Assembly (NCBI GenBank): GCA_040752395.1
Contig: JBFMHD010000190.1
Coordinates: 1 to 5,404, forward strand
DNA: 5,404 nucleotides
Source: JBFMHD01 sp040752395 [NCBI: Candidatus Hydrogenedentota bacterium]
GTDB taxonomy: Bacteria > JBFMHD01
Reading direction: 5' to 3'
This document shows, one piece after another, positions 1 to 5,404 of the stretch (positions are counted from its first letter, which is position 1; the number at the start of each line of letters is the position of its first letter). The notes below the pieces were generated by a model. That model did not search any database. It was not told the DNA's origin and worked only from the letters and a program-made list of their open reading frames with translations. Both the position numbers and the translations under genes were made by a program.

Positions 1-829
1 TTTTTATTTTGTTTTTTCCTATCTCTCTGAAAAATATAACAATCAAAGCATCTTTATGTTCTCTGAGATAATTTATTAGATCCTCGGTATCACCAGCGGT
101 CGCACGTATTTTTTTCATATCATTCATTGTTAAATAAGAATAAATACAGAGATTATCTTTTGTTAAAAGAGCACGTTTAAGAACTATTCCAGCAAGTTTT
201 AATGAAGAACTTGAACGGGATTGATATATTTGCTGGTATATAGAAAAAGGGTCCAGACCATAACTGAGTAAATCACCTGCAATTGTCATAGCTTCTTTAG
301 TCGTATTATTCTGTGAGAAGTTCCCTGTATCAACCACAAAACCGACATATAACCATAGAGCAATGGTTTTCTCTATAGGGATTTTAGTGTATTTCAAAAA
401 ATTATAGATAATCTCTGAAGTCGATGAGGCATTAACATCTGTTATAGATAGTGAAACCACGTCTTCACCAGACTGGTGATGGTCAATAATAACAATTGCG
501 CTGCATTTATTTCTATCTATAAAATGACGCATCCTGCCTATTCTATTAAGTGAATTTGTATCAGTTATAATTAAAAGGTCAAAGTTCTGACAGAGATATT
601 CTTCAGAATACTGTTTTATCGAATCTATTTCTGGCAAAAATTTTATTCTATCCGGGATCCTGTCATCGATTATTACTTCGACTTTTTTATCGTATAATTT
701 TAGAACCTTTTTCAACGTTAAAGCACTGCCTATACCATCTCCATCAGAATTAATATGGGTAGTAATAAGAAAGGAATCTTTTTGTTCAAATAACTCTTTT
801 AATTTAAGAAAAATATTATCTTCTATCAT
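1..829 (-). CDS. nrnA: Bifunctional oligoribonuclease / pAp phosphatase NrnA (DHH family), partial at its 3' end
   Basis: My own translation gives an open frame of 276 codons from the ATG at 829-827 running off the left edge. DHH phosphoesterase motifs appear in order: H25-x3-D29-G-D31 followed by GS (motif I), D90 in IITDTN (motif II), D116-H117-H118 (motif III), then NASSTSEI (133-140) and D167 in VVDTGNF (motif IV). These are the expected Mn-binding residues. The end, around GDTEDLINYLREH and FFREIG, matches the start of the DHHA1 substrate-binding domain; the glycine-rich GGGH end of that domain lies outside the window. Family members are about 310-330 aa, so roughly 40-50 residues are missing. 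NrnA degrades 2-5 nt RNAs and dephosphorylates pAp in the cytoplasm. The start overlaps the end of rbfA by 14 nt. An in-frame stop lies 11 codons upstream with no other standard start between, and GGAAGAAGG (830-838) abuts the ATG. Motif I has Asn27-Ser28 where PDGD-type members have Pro before Asp. The DHH family is certain; the NrnA subtype is likely from length and gene context. Confidence 0.9.
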   Translation of the reverse strand, partial: MIEDNIFLKLKELFEQKDSFLITTHINSDGDGIGSALTLKKVLKLYDKKVEVIIDDRIPDRIKFLPEIDSIKQYSEEYLCQNFDLLIITDTNSLNRIGRMRHFIDRNKCSAIVIIDHHQSGEDVVSLSITDVNASSTSEIIYNFLKYTKIPIEKTIALWLYVGFVVDTGNFSQNNTTKEAMTIAGDLLSYGLDPFSIYQQIYQSRSSSSLKLAGIVLKRALLTKDNLCIYSYLTMNDMKKIRATAGDTEDLINYLREHKDALIVIFFREIGKNKIK

Positions 830-1169
830 CCTTCTTCCATCTATCCATAATAGAAATAATTCTCATTCCATCTCTTATCCTGTGGTCGAGCGCAAATACA
901 AGTTCAGGTATCTTTTTTAATCTCAGTCGTTTTTTCAGGATGTATCTTATTTCACCAGAAGATTCATTAAGATAGGATATCTGTTTTTCTTCATCTTCTT
1001 TCTCTAAATTGATAAAACTGATATATACCTTAGCTAAAGAGAGGTCATTTGTTAGAGCCACTTCTATTATTGAGAAAATACCTATTTTTTTTTTTAGATC
1101 ATTATATAATATGTTGTTTATCTCTTGTTGAAAAAGAGATTCAATTTTTTTTAAACGAATTTCATTCAT
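816..1169 (-). CDS. rbfA: 30S ribosome-binding factor RbfA
   Basis: This is a 117-residue protein of usual RbfA length. RbfA is a single-domain KH protein that binds the 30S subunit near the 5' end of 16S rRNA and assists late 30S maturation and cold adaptation. Family features visible are the N-terminal helix with RLKKIESLFQQEI, the strand VALTNDLSLAKVYISF (37-52, matching the conserved 'S-D-L-A-K-V-Y-V' region), the helix kink SSG at 70-72 (the A-x-G of the RbfA KH fold) followed by EIRYILKKRLRLKKIPEL, and the conserved F-x-x-D (92-95). The start ATG shares four bases with the ylxP stop (ATGA), and GGAG at 1178-1181 stands 8 nt upstream. The stop is TAA at 818-816, inside the start of nrnA. 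Codons 25-29 contain a run of eleven A on the coding strand. The gene lacks the long charged C-terminal tail seen in some homologues. Confidence 0.95.
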   Translation of the reverse strand: MNEIRLKKIESLFQQEINNILYNDLKKKIGIFSIIEVALTNDLSLAKVYISFINLEKEDEEKQISYLNESSGEIRYILKKRLRLKKIPELVFALDHRIRDGMRIISIMDRWKKDDRR

Positions 1170-1474
1170 GATAATAACTCCGGGTGATAAAACTCTTCTT
1201 TATGTTCAAGTATGTTCATTTCTGAGATTTCCTCGATTATTCTTTTTATTTTCTGTATTCTGTCATTTAAAAAAGAAGAGTCTCCATTTATAAAACTAAA
1301 ACCAATTAATCCTAATTTTTTATCATCATTAAAATTTATCTCACAAGCAGAAAAACCAAGATTTTTTGCTTTTTCTAAAAGCGGTAAAACTACCGAGCGT
1401 TTTTCTTTAAGTGACCGAGAATAAGGTATCTGAATCTTTATAATTAATGTATATAATATAATTTTTGTTTTCAT
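1166..1474 (-). CDS. ylxP: YlxP-like DUF503 family protein
   Basis: This is a 102-residue protein matching the DUF503/YlxP family in length and pattern. A first strand (LYTLIIKIQIP) is followed by the family's SLKEKR signature (21-26), a helix (VVLPLLEKAKN), a strand FSACEINFND where homologues have FNVSVAEVD, then LGLIGFSFING and a long amphipathic helix FLNDRIQKIKRIIEEI. No signal peptide or membrane segment is seen, so it should be cytoplasmic. The molecular role is not settled; in Bacillus and many other bacteria the gene sits in this same cluster between infB and rbfA, which suggests a link to ribosome maturation (inference). It begins 19 nt after the infB stop. The region before its ATG has only a weak purine-rich match (GAGAGACATAGAAG), so translation may rely on ribosomes coming from infB. 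It ends with TGA overlapping the rbfA start. Confidence 0.87.
   Translation of the reverse strand: MKTKIILYTLIIKIQIPYSRSLKEKRSVVLPLLEKAKNLGFSACEINFNDDKKLGLIGFSFINGDSSFLNDRIQKIKRIIEEISEMNILEHKEEFYHPELLS
1178..1181 (-). promoter_or_regulatory. Ribosome binding site of rbfA, inside ylxP
   Basis: GGAG on the minus strand sits 8 nt before the rbfA ATG (1169), within the last codons of ylxP. Together with the ATGA stop/start overlap it supports both the chosen rbfA start and translation coupled to ylxP. Confidence 0.7.
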
Positions 1475-1493
1475 CTTCTATGTCTCTCATTCG

Positions 1494-3617
1494 TTATGTA
1501 TCAACCTCTTTAGAGATGTAACATTCAAGTATATCTCCTACTTTGATGTCATTAAAATTTTCTACCAGTATCCCGCATTCAAAACCTTCTTTAACTTCTC
1601 GTACATCGTCTTTGAACCTCTTAAGAGAAGCTGGTCTGCCCTCGTAAAGCATAACACCATCCCTGATAATCTTTATTCTGCCTTTTCTATGAATATTCCC
1701 GCTTGTTACCAAACAACCACCAACGGTACCAAGATGCGAGATTTTAAATAGTTCTTTTATCTCAGCTTTACCATACAATTGTTCCACAATCTCAGGTTCA
1801 AGCATACCTTTTATCGCCATTTTTATATCATCAATGATTTGATATATAATATCATAGATTCGTATCTCGACTTTCTCTTTTTTGGCAAGCTCCAAAGCAC
1901 TCTCCAGAGTCCTTACCTGAAACCCAAGTATCATAGCATCTGAGGCACTTGCAAGAAGCACGTCACCATCATTGATAGCTCCGGTGCCGGTCGAAACAAG
2001 ATGTACATTGATCTCATCTGTGCTTAATTTCAATAACATATCTGTTAAAGCTTCTACTGATCCTTTTCTGTCTGCTTTTAAAATAATGTTGAGTTGTTGT
2101 TTCACACCCTCTTTAACCTGTTTTGATATCTCTTCGAGTGTTATTTTTTTTCTAACGTTTAATCTGTCTGTTTTAGTCAGCTCTTTTCGCTTCTCAGATA
2201 TAATTCTCGCTTCCCTTTCAGTTAGTGTAGCAGTTAATTTATCGCCCACCTCAGGTAACTCATTAAACCCAAGTATAAGAACAGGGTGCGAGGGATGAGC
2301 AACAGTAATTGGCTCCATTTTATCGTTAAACATATTTCTTATCTTACCAAAAACAGAACCACAAACAAAAGTATCACCAACTTCTAATGTTCCACGTTTA
2401 ACAATCGCAGCACCTATTATACCTATCTTGGGGTCGATCCTTGACTCTATTATAGTAGCAGTGGCTTTTCTATGAGGATTGGCTTTTAATTCCATCATTT
2501 CAGCCTGAAATAATATCGCTTCAAGTAGTTGAGGTACAGCCTCGCCTGTTTTAGCAGATATCTTAATTACAATCGTTTTCCCACCCCATTCCTCAGGTGT
2601 AAGATTATACTCAACAAGTTGCTGTTTAATTCTGTCAGGACTAACATTCGGTAAATCACTTTTATTAATAGCAACGATAATGGGACAATTTGCTGATTGT
2701 GCGTGTCGTATAGCTTCAATTGTTTGTGGCATAATACCATCATCAGCAGCTATTACCAGAACTACAATATCAGTGACCTGTGCTCCGCGTGCCCGCATAG
2801 CTGTAAACGCCTCGTGACCAGGTGTATCTATAAAAGTTATAGTTCTACCATCATCTAAAGTTACCACACTTGCGCCTATATGTTGTGTTATACCACCGGC
2901 TTCAGTAGCAACTATATTTGTTTTTCTTATATAATCGAGCAAAGTTGTTTTGCCGTGGTCAACATGTCCCATCACTGTTACAATTGGTGGTCGTGGCTTT
3001 AAATCATCCACCCTGTCCTCTTCTTCACGACCTTCCTCAATATATAAACCAGAAACCCTGGCCTCAAACCCGAAATCAAGCGCTATTGTAGATGCTGTCT
3101 CTGCATCAATAGGCTGACTGAGCGTACAGAGATATCCTCCATCAACAAGTTTTTTTAAAACTTTAGCAGGTTCTACATTCATCTTTCTTGCAAGATCTCT
3201 AACTAAAATAGGGTTCTGAATCTCAATAACCCTTAATTCTTCTTTCTCTTCTTTTAGTTTACGTTTCTGTTCTGATATAATCTTATTAAGTATAATGTCT
3301 TCTTCTATGACCTCTCTTTGTTTCTTGGTTTTTATTTGTTTTTGGGGTTTCTTTTTTTCGATTTTTTGGGGGATTAAAGGTATCTCTTGCAGAGGTGGAG
3401 GTTTTACTTCAAGTGGTTCAATTTTTTTTTCTTCTTCAATTAAAGCCTTTGGTTTTTGTTTTGCTTTTTTTTCTTTGAACTTGTCTAGAATGAGTTTTAC
3501 AGTTTCATCATCAAGATTCTGCATTCTGTTTTTTACAGTAATGTTTTTATCTTTTAAAAATTCTATTATCGTATCACTTTTAACACCGCATTCTCGAGCC
3601 ACTTCAAAAATTCTCAT
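1494..3617 (-). CDS. infB: Translation initiation factor IF-2
   Basis: The 707-residue protein is a compact IF2, the GTPase that places fMet-tRNA on the 30S subunit and promotes 70S joining. Residues 1-50 (MRIFEVARECGV...) form an IF2_N module. A Lys/Glu/Pro-rich linker follows (about 50-130), then a second IF2_N-like module (about 135-190, NPILVRDLARKMNV). The G domain has G1 GHVDHGKT (217-224), the G2 region GGITQHIGA (241-249), G3 DTPGH (264-268, with catalytic His268), G4 NKSD (318-321) and G5 SAK (354-356). Domain II (about 385-465), domain III (about 505-600) and the initiator-tRNA-binding C2 domain (about 615-707; GGCLVTSG, EGRPASLKRFKDDV, ECGI) are all complete. The length is close to short forms such as that of Bacillus subtilis and much shorter than cyanobacterial or enterobacterial IF2. 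The ATG shares its A with the nusA stop (TAATG); GGAG at 3629-3632, inside nusA, lies 11 nt upstream, so coupled translation is likely. Stop is TAA. Confidence 0.98.
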   Translation of the reverse strand: MRIFEVARECGVKSDTIIEFLKDKNITVKNRMQNLDDETVKLILDKFKEKKAKQKPKALIEEEKKIEPLEVKPPPLQEIPLIPQKIEKKKPQKQIKTKKQREVIEEDIILNKIISEQKRKLKEEKEELRVIEIQNPILVRDLARKMNVEPAKVLKKLVDGGYLCTLSQPIDAETASTIALDFGFEARVSGLYIEEGREEEDRVDDLKPRPPIVTVMGHVDHGKTTLLDYIRKTNIVATEAGGITQHIGASVVTLDDGRTITFIDTPGHEAFTAMRARGAQVTDIVVLVIAADDGIMPQTIEAIRHAQSANCPIIVAINKSDLPNVSPDRIKQQLVEYNLTPEEWGGKTIVIKISAKTGEAVPQLLEAILFQAEMMELKANPHRKATATIIESRIDPKIGIIGAAIVKRGTLEVGDTFVCGSVFGKIRNMFNDKMEPITVAHPSHPVLILGFNELPEVGDKLTATLTEREARIISEKRKELTKTDRLNVRKKITLEEISKQVKEGVKQQLNIILKADRKGSVEALTDMLLKLSTDEINVHLVSTGTGAINDGDVLLASASDAMILGFQVRTLESALELAKKEKVEIRIYDIIYQIIDDIKMAIKGMLEPEIVEQLYGKAEIKELFKISHLGTVGGCLVTSGNIHRKGRIKIIRDGVMLYEGRPASLKRFKDDVREVKEGFECGILVENFNDIKVGDILECYISKEVDT

Positions 3618-5203
3618 TAAATTTGTTTCTCCATTTTTTTATTTATTTCTTTCATAAATTTGCTAATCTCCTTTTTGTTATAACCGGCATAGGAAAGCCA
3701 GGCATCGAAATCACCCCGCTCTACATAACCCTTCAACTCATCTAAAGATAGGCTCAAAGAGAGCTCTTTTAATTCTTCTATGTTTGCTGCTTCTTTACCA
3801 TCTTCGAAAATAAAAGATTCTATTTCGAGTTCTTTTTTCTCTGGTTCTTTCTTTTCTTCTTTTGGTTCCTTGACTTTTTCTTTCTCCTTCAGCTCTTTTA
3901 TAACCTTCTCCTTCTCTAAATCAGCTTTTTCTTTAAGTTTTAATACCGCCTTCAATATCTTCTCAGCACTCTTTAACCCGATACCATCAATTTTTGCAAG
4001 GTCTTCAGGTGTTTTATCAAGTAAATTACGCACAATGGTATAACCACTTGCGATAAGTTTCTGTAAAGTCTTTTCACCAATACCATCAAGGTCCTTCACA
4101 GCTGTATCTTCAAATGCTCTCTGTATCCCCTGGATAGCATCAAACTCAGAAAAAGCCGCTTTCTTTTTAATCTCAGCATCACTCTTTATATCTATCTTCC
4201 AACCAGTAAGTTTAGCAGCTAATCTCACATTCTGTCCTGCTTTTCCTATGGCGAGTGATTGTTTATCCTGCGGAACTATTACTGATGCTTCCTTTTCTGC
4301 TTCATTTATTTCTATTGTAATAACAGGTGCGGGTGATAATGCATTTATAATAAAATTATTTATATTTTCATCCCATTTAATTATATCTATTTTTTCACCG
4401 TTTAATTCTCTCATAATAGTCTGAATCCTTGTTCCGCGCTGCCCAACACAGGTGCCGATAGGGTCTATCTCCTGCTTTGTACTCTTTATAGCTACTTTTG
4501 TTCTGTAACCGGCTTCTCGCGCTATCTCTTTAATCTCAAGGGTATTGTCTGCTATTTCAGGAACCTCAGACTCAAATAACCGTCTGACTAAATCAGAATG
4601 AGTGCGAGAGACAATCACCTGAGCCTGGGAACCTTTTGTAAGCTCTTTAACCTCAAGTATTATTACGCGTATCCGCTGCTCAGGTACATAGGTATCATTT
4701 GGCATCTGCTCTTTTTTAGGTAGCAATGCCTCAACCCTACCTATTGTCAAAAATACATTGCCTTTGCTGATACGCTGAATCCTTGCATTAACAAGTTCTC
4801 CTTGTTTGTTTTTAAACTCATCATATATCATCCCTTTTTCAGCACGCCTTAACTCTTGCTGAAAAACGTTTTTTACTGTTAAAGCAGCTATTCTATTAAA
4901 ATCTTTTGGTTTGATCTCAAGTTCAATAAAATCATCTATTTTCACGGACTTCTTATAATTCTTTGCTTCTTCAAAAGATATCTCATACTGTTTGTCTATC
5001 AGGTTTTCAACAACCCGACGTGTTGAAAAAATTCTTATGTTACCTTTCTTTTTATCAAACTCTACTTTAACATTATCAGTTTCACCATAATTCTTCTTGT
5101 ACGCTTTCAAAATCGCTTCTTCAATGATATCGATTAATATATTTTGCGGTACACCCTTTTCTTCTTCTAATTCTTTTAATGCTGATACAAACGCTGTTTC
5201 CAT
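3617..5203 (-). CDS. nusA: Transcription termination/antitermination factor NusA
   Basis: This 528-residue NusA binds RNA polymerase and nascent RNA, modulating pausing, termination and antitermination. Domains in order: the RNAP-binding N-terminal domain (about 1-125, METAFVSALKELEEEKG, EEAILKAYKK), S1 (about 132-200), KH1 with G254-Q-R-G257 followed by NGEKIDIIKW, and KH2 with G320-K-A-G323 followed by QNVRLAAKLTGWKIDI. A helix-hairpin-helix pair then has GIG at 374-376 and 407-409, comparable to the acidic-repeat region of longer NusA proteins. Residues about 421-460 are a Lys/Glu linker, and 461-528 form a C-terminal module I do not recognise. The ATG at 5203-5201 is preferred because GAGGGAGG lies 7 nt upstream and the protein then begins exactly like family members. 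An ATG at 5257 in the same frame would add 18 residues encoded partly in repeat sequence and has no good ribosome binding site. It is the first gene of the cluster in this window, with no rimP directly upstream. Confidence 0.97.
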   Translation of the reverse strand: METAFVSALKELEEEKGVPQNILIDIIEEAILKAYKKNYGETDNVKVEFDKKKGNIRIFSTRRVVENLIDKQYEISFEEAKNYKKSVKIDDFIELEIKPKDFNRIAALTVKNVFQQELRRAEKGMIYDEFKNKQGELVNARIQRISKGNVFLTIGRVEALLPKKEQMPNDTYVPEQRIRVIILEVKELTKGSQAQVIVSRTHSDLVRRLFESEVPEIADNTLEIKEIAREAGYRTKVAIKSTKQEIDPIGTCVGQRGTRIQTIMRELNGEKIDIIKWDENINNFIINALSPAPVITIEINEAEKEASVIVPQDKQSLAIGKAGQNVRLAAKLTGWKIDIKSDAEIKKKAAFSEFDAIQGIQRAFEDTAVKDLDGIGEKTLQKLIASGYTIVRNLLDKTPEDLAKIDGIGLKSAEKILKAVLKLKEKADLEKEKVIKELKEKEKVKEPKEEKKEPEKKELEIESFIFEDGKEAANIEELKELSLSLSLDELKGYVERGDFDAWLSYAGYNKKEISKFMKEINKKMEKQI

Positions 5204-5210
5204 TTTAAAT

Positions 5211-5218
5211 CCTCCCTC
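5211..5218 (-). promoter_or_regulatory. Ribosome binding site of nusA
   Basis: The minus strand reads GAGGGAGG followed by seven A/T bases and then ATG at 5203. This is the strongest Shine-Dalgarno match in the window and decides the nusA start in favour of 5203 over the in-frame ATG at 5257. Confidence 0.88.
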
Positions 5219-5231
5219 AAAAAACCTCGTA

Positions 5232-5260
5232 ACTATAATAATATCAAGTAGAAGCAAGAA
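5232..5260 (-). promoter_or_regulatory. Possible weak promoter for the nusA operon
   Basis: Between the nusA ribosome binding site and the first tandem repeat, the minus strand is AT-rich and offers two -10-like hexamers, TATTAT (5243-5238) and TATAGT (5237-5232). Bases at the -35 distance (TCTTGC or TTCTTG) match TTGACA poorly and fall in the repeat array. This is a candidate only; the operon could equally be transcribed from farther upstream. Confidence 0.2.
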
Positions 5261-5268
5261 GCAAGAAG
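5251..5268. repeat. Short tandem array A, 7-base unit GAAGCAA
   Basis: Two full copies of GAAGCAA and a partial third (GAAG) lie head to tail in noncoding DNA upstream of nusA. The array is the one nearest the gene and overlaps the region where a nusA promoter would be expected. Confidence 0.8.
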
Positions 5269-5269
5269 T

Positions 5270-5311
5270 CTGACTCCTGACTCCTAACTCCTAATTTTGA
5301 ATTTTTAATTT
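5270..5311. repeat. Short tandem array B, 7-base units CTGACTC / CTAACTC grading into TAATTTT / GAATTTT
   Basis: From 5270 the sequence reads CTGACTC, CTGACTC, CTAACTC and CTAATTT in a strict 7-base period. It then continues at 7-base spacing as TAATTTT (5292), GAATTTT (5299) and TAATTT (5306). The first half is GC-moderate and the second half almost pure A/T, so two related arrays appear to merge. No reading frame or strong hairpin explains the period. Confidence 0.8.
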
Positions 5312-5317
5312 AACTTT

Positions 5318-5349
5318 CTGCCTCTGTGCCTTTGTGCCTCTGTGCCTTT
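5318..5349. repeat. Short tandem array C, 8-base unit CTGTGCCT / TTGTGCCT
   Basis: A partial copy (CTGCCT, 5318-5323) is followed by three full copies at 5324, 5332 and 5340, alternating CTGTGCCT, TTGTGCCT, CTGTGCCT, and a degraded end. The period is 8, unlike arrays A and B. Confidence 0.85.
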
Positions 5350-5350
5350 C

Positions 5351-5376
5351 CTTTGAATCTTTCAATCTTTCAATCT
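5351..5376. repeat. Short tandem array D, 8-base unit CTTTCAAT
   Basis: CTTTGAAT (5351) is followed by two exact CTTTCAAT copies (5359, 5367) and a terminal CT. The array ends 7 bases before the putative tRNA 5' end, so any promoter for that RNA would have to lie in or across arrays C and D. Confidence 0.85.
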
Positions 5377-5383
5377 GTAGAGT

Positions 5384-5404
5384 AGAGCGCTGGCGCAGTA
5401 GGAT
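5384..5404 (+). tRNA. Possible 5' end of a tRNA gene, cut by the window edge
   Basis: The last 21 bases stand out as GC-rich against AT-rich surroundings and fit the invariant 5' positions of a tRNA. A seven-base acceptor strand AGAGCGC (5384-5390) is followed by T8, G9, the D-stem GGCGC-like strand G10-C11-G12-C13, then A14, G15, T16, A17 and the conserved G18-G19, and A, T. The pattern CAG-NN-GGAT is common in bacterial D-loops. The D-stem 3' strand, anticodon, T-arm and acceptor 3' side are outside, so neither identity nor completeness can be judged. An acceptor strand starting with A is less common than one starting with G. It would be divergent from the nusA operon. A chance match cannot be excluded. 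Confidence 0.42.

Follow-up and report, generated by a model that had tools for sequence, protein, structure and literature searches.

A probable STRR-like composite of abutting 7- and 8-base tandem arrays upstream of nusA in an apparently non-cyanobacterial genome

Introduction

Tandem heptamers have been described in bacteria of scattered groups (PMC4692102, PMC4679880). In cyanobacteria, the short tandemly repeated repetitive (STRR) sequences consist of degenerate 7-base units that lie in tandem between genes, differing units being found close to each other. Related repeats have been described elsewhere, such as GGGAATC heptamers in Xanthomonas and GGGGA(C/T)T heptamers in Nostoc (PMC4692102), TAACTGA direct repeats in Beggiatoaceae, Bacteroidetes and cyanobacteria (PMC4679880), and 7- and 8-base multicopy tandem units between the genes of Geobacter metallireducens, where some paired sites were proposed to be regulator binding sites (PMC2700814). 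Dispersed intergenic repeats have also been listed for Nostoc (PMC2408588), and heptamer repeats form the P6b stem of the group I intron in Nostoc trnL (PMC4476775). No accepted origin for heptamer arrays was seen in the literature searched.

Here, we examined a block of abutting tandem arrays located upstream of nusA in a DNA stretch of 5,404 nucleotides, the whole of which is referred to as the window. The block combines the presence of related unit words in an apparent non-cyanobacterium, an identity of 33 bases with phage-like contigs, and a mixture of periods 7 and 8.

Layout of the repeat block

Tandem Repeats Finder identified five arrays, which abut one another across positions 5250-5376 and have periods of 7, 7, 7, 8 and 8:

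5250-5268, plus strand: array 1, AGAAGCA (GAAGCAA phase), 2.7 copies; G exceeds C on the plus strand; nusA-proximal arm of a predicted hairpin
5270-5292, plus strand: array 2, CTGACTC passing into CTAACTC, 3.3 copies; C exceeds G on the plus strand; second arm of the predicted hairpin
5293-5311, or up to 5313, plus strand: array 3, TAATTTT/GAATTTT/TAATTT (AATTTTG), 2.7 copies; AT-rich, with the period of array 2
5314-5349, plus strand: array 4, octamers CTCTGTGC/CTTTGTGC, 4.5 copies; alternatively called as a 16-mer of 2.3 copies at 5314-5350
5351-5376, plus strand: array 5, octamer CTTTCAAT/CTTTGAAT, 3.2 copies, as given by the same program

The units, copy numbers and coordinates of the abutting 7- and 8-base arrays that a sequence-only reading of the window had reported upstream of nusA were thus confirmed, five arrays being given by the program. 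In the octamer arrays, the G-rich strand coincides with the nusA sense strand. The top local score for periods 7 and 8 was 19 within 5248-5376, reached in the heptamer stretch (15 for period 8 alone), whereas 2000 dinucleotide shuffles averaged 4.3 and never exceeded 11, and window positions 1-5200 gave 7; periods 5, 6, 9, 10 and 11, taken singly, scored no more than 5 within the block. The same reading had described the units as unrelated. This is incorrect for GAAGCAA and CTGACTC/CTAACTC, which make up an imperfect inverted pair, so that the units are not all unrelated. GAAGCAA is a diverged inverted match of GGAGTTA/GGAGTCA, with 13 of 20 positions matching in an ungapped alignment and 19 pairs once G.U is allowed.

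With cyanobacterial STRRs the block shares degenerate 7-base tandem units (arrays 1-3), an intergenic location, the proximity of differing units and CTGACTC/CTAACTC itself. The window differs in the period of 8 of arrays 4 and 5 and in a host that looks non-cyanobacterial, and because of the latter we have filed the block as STRR-like only. The G-tract heptamers of Xanthomonas and Nostoc resemble it in being mostly intergenic, in forming G-rich convergent pairs and in being fewer in divergent than in convergent spacers; however, they carry an identical G-tract unit on both arms, whereas the arms of the window differ and contain no GGG (PMC4692102). The TAACTGA repeats likewise form heptamer arrays upstream of non-cyanobacterial genes and some of their spacers are mixed, but one unit is dominant there (PMC4679880), while several units plus octamers are present here. 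The Geobacter repeats share both unit lengths, the multicopy tandem arrangement between genes and a non-cyanobacterial host, and differ in their units and in the proposed binding sites (PMC2700814). Facing heptamer arrays also base-pair in the RNA of the Nostoc trnL intron, but the stem they build there is part of a group I intron, whereas that of the window is a predicted leader hairpin (PMC4476775). Consistent with its short units and its length, the block also belongs with the long simple sequence repeats, defined by a unit of 1-11 nt and a length greater than chance (Mrazek 2007, as cited in PMC4679880).

Gene context

The genes in the window form a minus-strand operon in the order nusA, infB, a small ORF, rbfA and an nrnA-like gene, the last of which runs past the window edge. 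The features next to the block are:

3617-5203, minus strand: nusA, first operon gene in the window (NusA, TIGR01953, E 6.4e-121)
5210-5218, minus strand: Shine-Dalgarno-like GAGGGAGGA (GGAGG-type), read from the sequence, directly upstream of nusA

Profile models placed NusA, IF-2 and RbfA above their cut-offs and NrnA under its curated cut-off. The small ORF (1166-1474, between infB and rbfA) had no NCBIfam match; its position suggests that it may be DUF503-like. A tRNA scan of the window found none. The block is noncoding provided that nusA begins at the ATG at 5203; an alternative in-frame TTG start at 5257 lies within array 1.

The NusA protein is 37% identical to the single cyanobacterial NusA compared, in agreement with the earlier remark that the genes do not look cyanobacterial, and judged by this protein the host looks non-cyanobacterial. 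NusA searches of the genome-contig and viral-contig collections recovered no relative of the window.

Related units in cyanobacterial genomes

Among 146 genomes of the phylum of Plectonema radiosum, the cyanobacteria, 45 matched the block at E <=0.01, although matches near this limit in small genomes may be due to chance. The heptamer part held most of the matches listed, the best of which was 88% over 43 nt. A pattern of three CTRACTC units was found in 25 of the 146 genomes and a pattern of two octamer units in 21, and both unit families occurred together in 14, an overlap counted by hand from the heptamer and octamer pattern lists (Fisher p 2.4e-8, ignoring genome size and kinship). The reversed heptamer pattern was found in one of these genomes and the reversed octamer pattern in five, including G102 (20 matches) and G119 (22 matches). 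The likeness to cyanobacterial STRR heptamers, which had been suggested earlier, is supported by the best match and by the distribution of the CTRACTC pattern. The cyanobacterial octamers listed were mostly CTTTGCGC/CTCTGCGC, i.e., GCG forms, as against the GTG forms of the window.

A 27-base heptamer junction pattern was found in one stretch of the genome-contig collection, which belongs to the cyanobacterium Plectonema radiosum and contains heptamers only; its CTAACTC repeats continue into TAATTTTTAATT. The plasmid collection gave one weak match, to an Anabaena plasmid (E 3e-3), and a search of the phage collection gave no match.

Two further repeat families were noticed in these genomes. 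Another family of dispersed octamers (CTTTGCGT, CTTCGTGT; e.g., L006 1330-1440), similar in form to CTTTGTGC of the window, is present in many places in the cyanobacterium G023 and its relatives. Spacers of G023 and its relative G149 also contain a recurrent TTTTAGA/TTTTGGA ... AATCCAA/AATCTAA element with a centre often like TTGACAAAAAC, which looks like a small mobile unit.

Related units in phage-like contigs

Positions 5316-5348 of the window are identical (33/33) to two phage contigs, L001 and L002, which have most of their sequence in common. Three heptamer units were found in 50 stretches of viral contigs and three octamer units in 25. The 76 viral loci were reduced to 68 non-redundant groups, some of which are separate stretches of one contig, and 16 of the 68 contained both periods. 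Approximately half of the viral arrays (99/195) were located outside ORFs of at least 80 aa. In L231 (5830-6082), octamer units grade into each other by single changes, from CGTTGATC to CGTTAATT, and from CTTTGTAC through CTTTGCGT to CTTTGTGC. The octamer arrays of L191 (5265-5335) likewise show units that differ stepwise by one change at a time, and intergenic stretches of L002 and of its virus record, G147, carry several ATTCCCGAT..TCGGGAATGACAG repeat copies near octamer arrays.

Array distribution and turnover in related cyanobacteria

In 0.8 Mb of G023, period 7 dominated with 254 arrays, compared with 11 for period 8, 3 for period 6, 17 for period 9 and 22 for period 12; a Markov control contained none. 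Using a crude ORF caller (at least 80 aa, no gene model), 207 of the 265 arrays of period 7 or 8 were located outside ORFs and 30 within them. Arrays that lie side by side with different units but the same period are common in a genome such as this one: neighbours within 40 nt differed in unit in 42 of 43 pairs, a proportion that is partly built in because adjoining arrays of the same unit are merged by the finder. Even with this reservation, the earlier argument that a period shared by unrelated units is hard to explain is weakened.

The relative G149 (91-93% identity to G023 at the L006 locus) allowed orthologous arrays to be compared. Only 21 of 150 array clusters were comparable, covering parts of G149, and candidates with N runs were dropped. 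Four of them had the same units, six shared units in part, five were labelled as all replaced and six as absent, but these labels depend on exact identity of the consensus units above a score cut and overstate the change. Three of the five replaced clusters (24, 80 and 89) mostly contain variants of a single unit, and in four of the six absent ones (32, 35, 81 and 88) short or other heptamer repeats persist below the cut. A clear switch to unrelated units was seen in clusters 31, 84, 86 and 147, and in cluster 92 one of the two species has a second array pair nested within the first. Of the clusters with facing arrays, seven were picked by hand and inspected by eye (30, 31, 80, 84, 86, 92 and 147); the centre had changed in five of them with at least one outer arm kept, and was kept in clusters 30 and 80. 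These changes are compatible with growth at the centre.

Considering the block itself and these proxies, we find it probable that it is an STRR-like composite array that arose mainly by step duplication and has little or no dedicated promoter function. If the same process operates in the organism of the window, short arrays would have been lengthened in 7- or 8-base steps within the spacer upstream of nusA, each new unit being a copy of the preceding one that drifted later. Such copying of the last unit followed by drift would account for the grading of CTGACTC into CTAACTC and TAATTTT. Unrelated units would join beside arrays that already exist, and the duplication steps would be linked to replication or repair, i.e., to a polymerase or repair activity. 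The hairpin described below may in addition affect stability, pausing or translation of the nusA leader. On the other hand, the proxy cyanobacteria have mainly period 7, so that the two period-8 arrays of the window would count against an STRR-like origin.

Order of neighbouring arrays

Pairs of neighbouring arrays with different units, no more than 80 nt apart, were classified by base composition, an array with more G than C, however slight the excess, being taken as G-rich; same-unit neighbours were excluded. In G023, G104 and G146 together, the G-rich array preceded the C-rich one in 44 pairs and followed it in none, the remainder being C-C (10), G-G (8) or undecided (4). G023 contributed 38 of the 44, G104 six and G146 none, and G149 had 23 such pairs with no reversed one. 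This order was kept in every class of spacer (co-directional, 28:0; divergent, 8:0; convergent, 8:0), and gene direction was accordingly ruled out as its cause. About 10 of the 44 pairs bear a recurrent AAAATCY element, and 34 were left without it (the period limits being slightly different). In the 68 viral groups, 13 pairs, from 10 loci, were G-then-C and one was reversed, besides seven C-C and one G-G. Arrays 1 and 2 of the window obey this order, which in a single case has an even chance. For identical units the order is already partly in print, as convergent pairs of same-unit arrays are described for Xanthomonas (70 and 75 cases; PMC4692102). In a limited literature search, we found no report of a G-then-C rule across different units, nor of central replacement.

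We also compared the fit of the two arms with that of swapped partners. In the cyanobacterial set, swaps reached the real value in 690 of 5000 trials when pairs with the AAAATCY element were included, in 4661 of 5000 without them, and in 4607 of 5000 when both strands were considered. The viral arms behaved in the opposite way, the 13 G-then-C pairs fitting better than swapped partners (11/5000 swaps reached the real value); pooling of the two sets gave 509/5000. General selection for hairpins as the cause of the order is thus unsupported in cyanobacteria, and the difference between the sets implies that hairpin selection may explain some of them only. Models of the origin of these arrays will have to explain an order that goes one way, does not depend on the direction of the genes and, in cyanobacteria, is unrelated to how well the arms pair.

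Predicted hairpin in the nusA leader

The two G- and C-rich arrays of the window face each other, and a fold was predicted for them on the nusA sense strand:

5249-5293, minus strand: predicted heptad hairpin of 7+6+6 pairs with mismatches every 7 nt and a 3-nt loop

For 5248-5297, the minus strand gave 19 pairs and -20 kcal/mol, compared with a shuffle mean of -10.59 (z -4.07; none of 200 shuffles as low), and the plus strand -5.8 kcal/mol (z +0.43). Folding of the sense strand only is expected if the wobble pairs of one strand are the mismatches of the other. A similar junction in the viral contig L191, in which G-rich heptamers pass into TTCTGACTCCTGACTCC, had a fold z of -4.22.

Such a strand-specific hairpin could be a selected leader element, contrary to the little function proposed above: transcribed with the leader, it would control nusA by pausing, attenuation, stability or translation. 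Besides the fold itself, this idea draws on a minus-strand hit of the terminator scan within the inner part of this stem (one hit vs 0.1 in shuffles), on the Nostoc trnL stem mentioned above, on the discussion of an STRR hairpin in transcript stability or termination in PMC2670836, and on the superior fit of the viral arms. However, under a harsher null in which the letters of the left unit were permuted and the tandem structure kept, 52 of 1000 permutations, including those that restore the unit, reached an equal energy. The entire 187-nt leader folded as an RNA like its shuffles (z 0.00), and the full stem is followed by ACTTGATATTATT, with no clean T-run. For these three reasons the hairpin, although a clear prediction, appears borderline as a sign of design. 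The octamer part by itself had a fold z of 0.00, and the block as plus-strand DNA folded more weakly than shuffles (z +1.84). A comparison of 4900-5404 with Rfam gave no family above its gathering score; the best match, mir-268 at 5239-5298 on the minus strand (26.4 bits vs a gathering score of 47), coincides with the predicted hairpin, and we regard it as a chance likeness to a hairpin model. Considering also that cyanobacterial arms fit no better than swapped partners and that the advantage of the viral arms is diluted in the pooled sets, we regard a dedicated leader element as rather unlikely, and the hairpin may instead simply result from a purine array and a pyrimidine array facing each other.

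Other explanations

The one-way order could also be accounted for if the arrays were scars of end extension, in which the 3' ends of a break are extended in 7-8-base steps and then joined. The extending activity would favour the G-rich strand, comparable to the addition of telomere repeats, and joining of two such ends, if it occurred, would place G-rich before C-rich arrays regardless of how the genes are oriented, add new units in the middle and give unrelated units the same period. What speaks for this possibility comes from proxies, namely the 44:0 order, the 34 pairs without the recurrent element, the viral ratio of 13:1 and the five changed centres among seven clusters, to which the window adds a single pair in the predicted order; we consider it improbable for the block.

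Step duplication should further be distinguished from the insertion of a dispersed, MITE-like mobile element as a single unit, which we judge to be quite improbable. The sequence-only reading had raised a composite dispersed element copied into many intergenic sites. Dispersal is seen in the proxies, with arrays in numerous spacers of G023. The 39-kb virus record G147 has GGCACARAGGCA 15 times at several sites on one strand only (3 vs 0 by strand in G148), and two more of its array types are strand-biased 8:0 and 7:0, 38 of its 44 ORFs sharing that strand; in cyanobacteria, repeated copies of the TTTTAGA..AATCCAA element have similar centres, and the element is nested in another array pair in G149. 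For the block itself, however, the five-array order was not found elsewhere: the exact junction patterns occurred in 0 contigs of the viral-contig collection and, with heptamers only, in one genome, while the cyanobacterial and phage matches span a single array or a single junction. In addition, nothing passed an inverted-repeat finder in 5180-5404.

The block had also been proposed to lie at the site of the nusA promoter, where changes in copy number could alter expression. The scan passed no promoter-like site, the best matches being 8/12:

5235-5264, minus strand: weak sigma-70-like match TTGCTT-18 nt-TATTAT, 8/12, under the scan threshold; overlaps array 1 and a variant match with a 15-nt spacer

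In G023, arrays per kb of non-array spacer were fewest between divergent genes (0.83, vs 1.78 in co-directional and 2.05 in convergent spacers), and the gap is smaller when counted per spacer (23/117 divergent, 81/356 co-directional and 36/119 convergent spacers with an array). The density is also minimal in divergent spacers of G149 and G104, but not in those of G146, which has 11 intergenic arrays. This deficit argues weakly against a promoter role of such arrays in general, and neither a promoter nor a switch role is supported. A contingency locus, in which variation in array length tunes the nusA promoter, could point to the overlap of array 1 with the promoter-like match and to the differences in array length between related cyanobacteria; nevertheless, the match is poor, each array has only 2.7 to 4.5 copies, which are degenerate, and nusA, as a housekeeping gene, is an unlikely phase-variable target, which makes a copy-number switch very improbable.

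Assemblies often break at repeats and the block stops 28 bases before the window end, but an assembly artefact at a contig end is the least probable explanation of all, as the arrays are internal, graded and similar to arrays in independent records.
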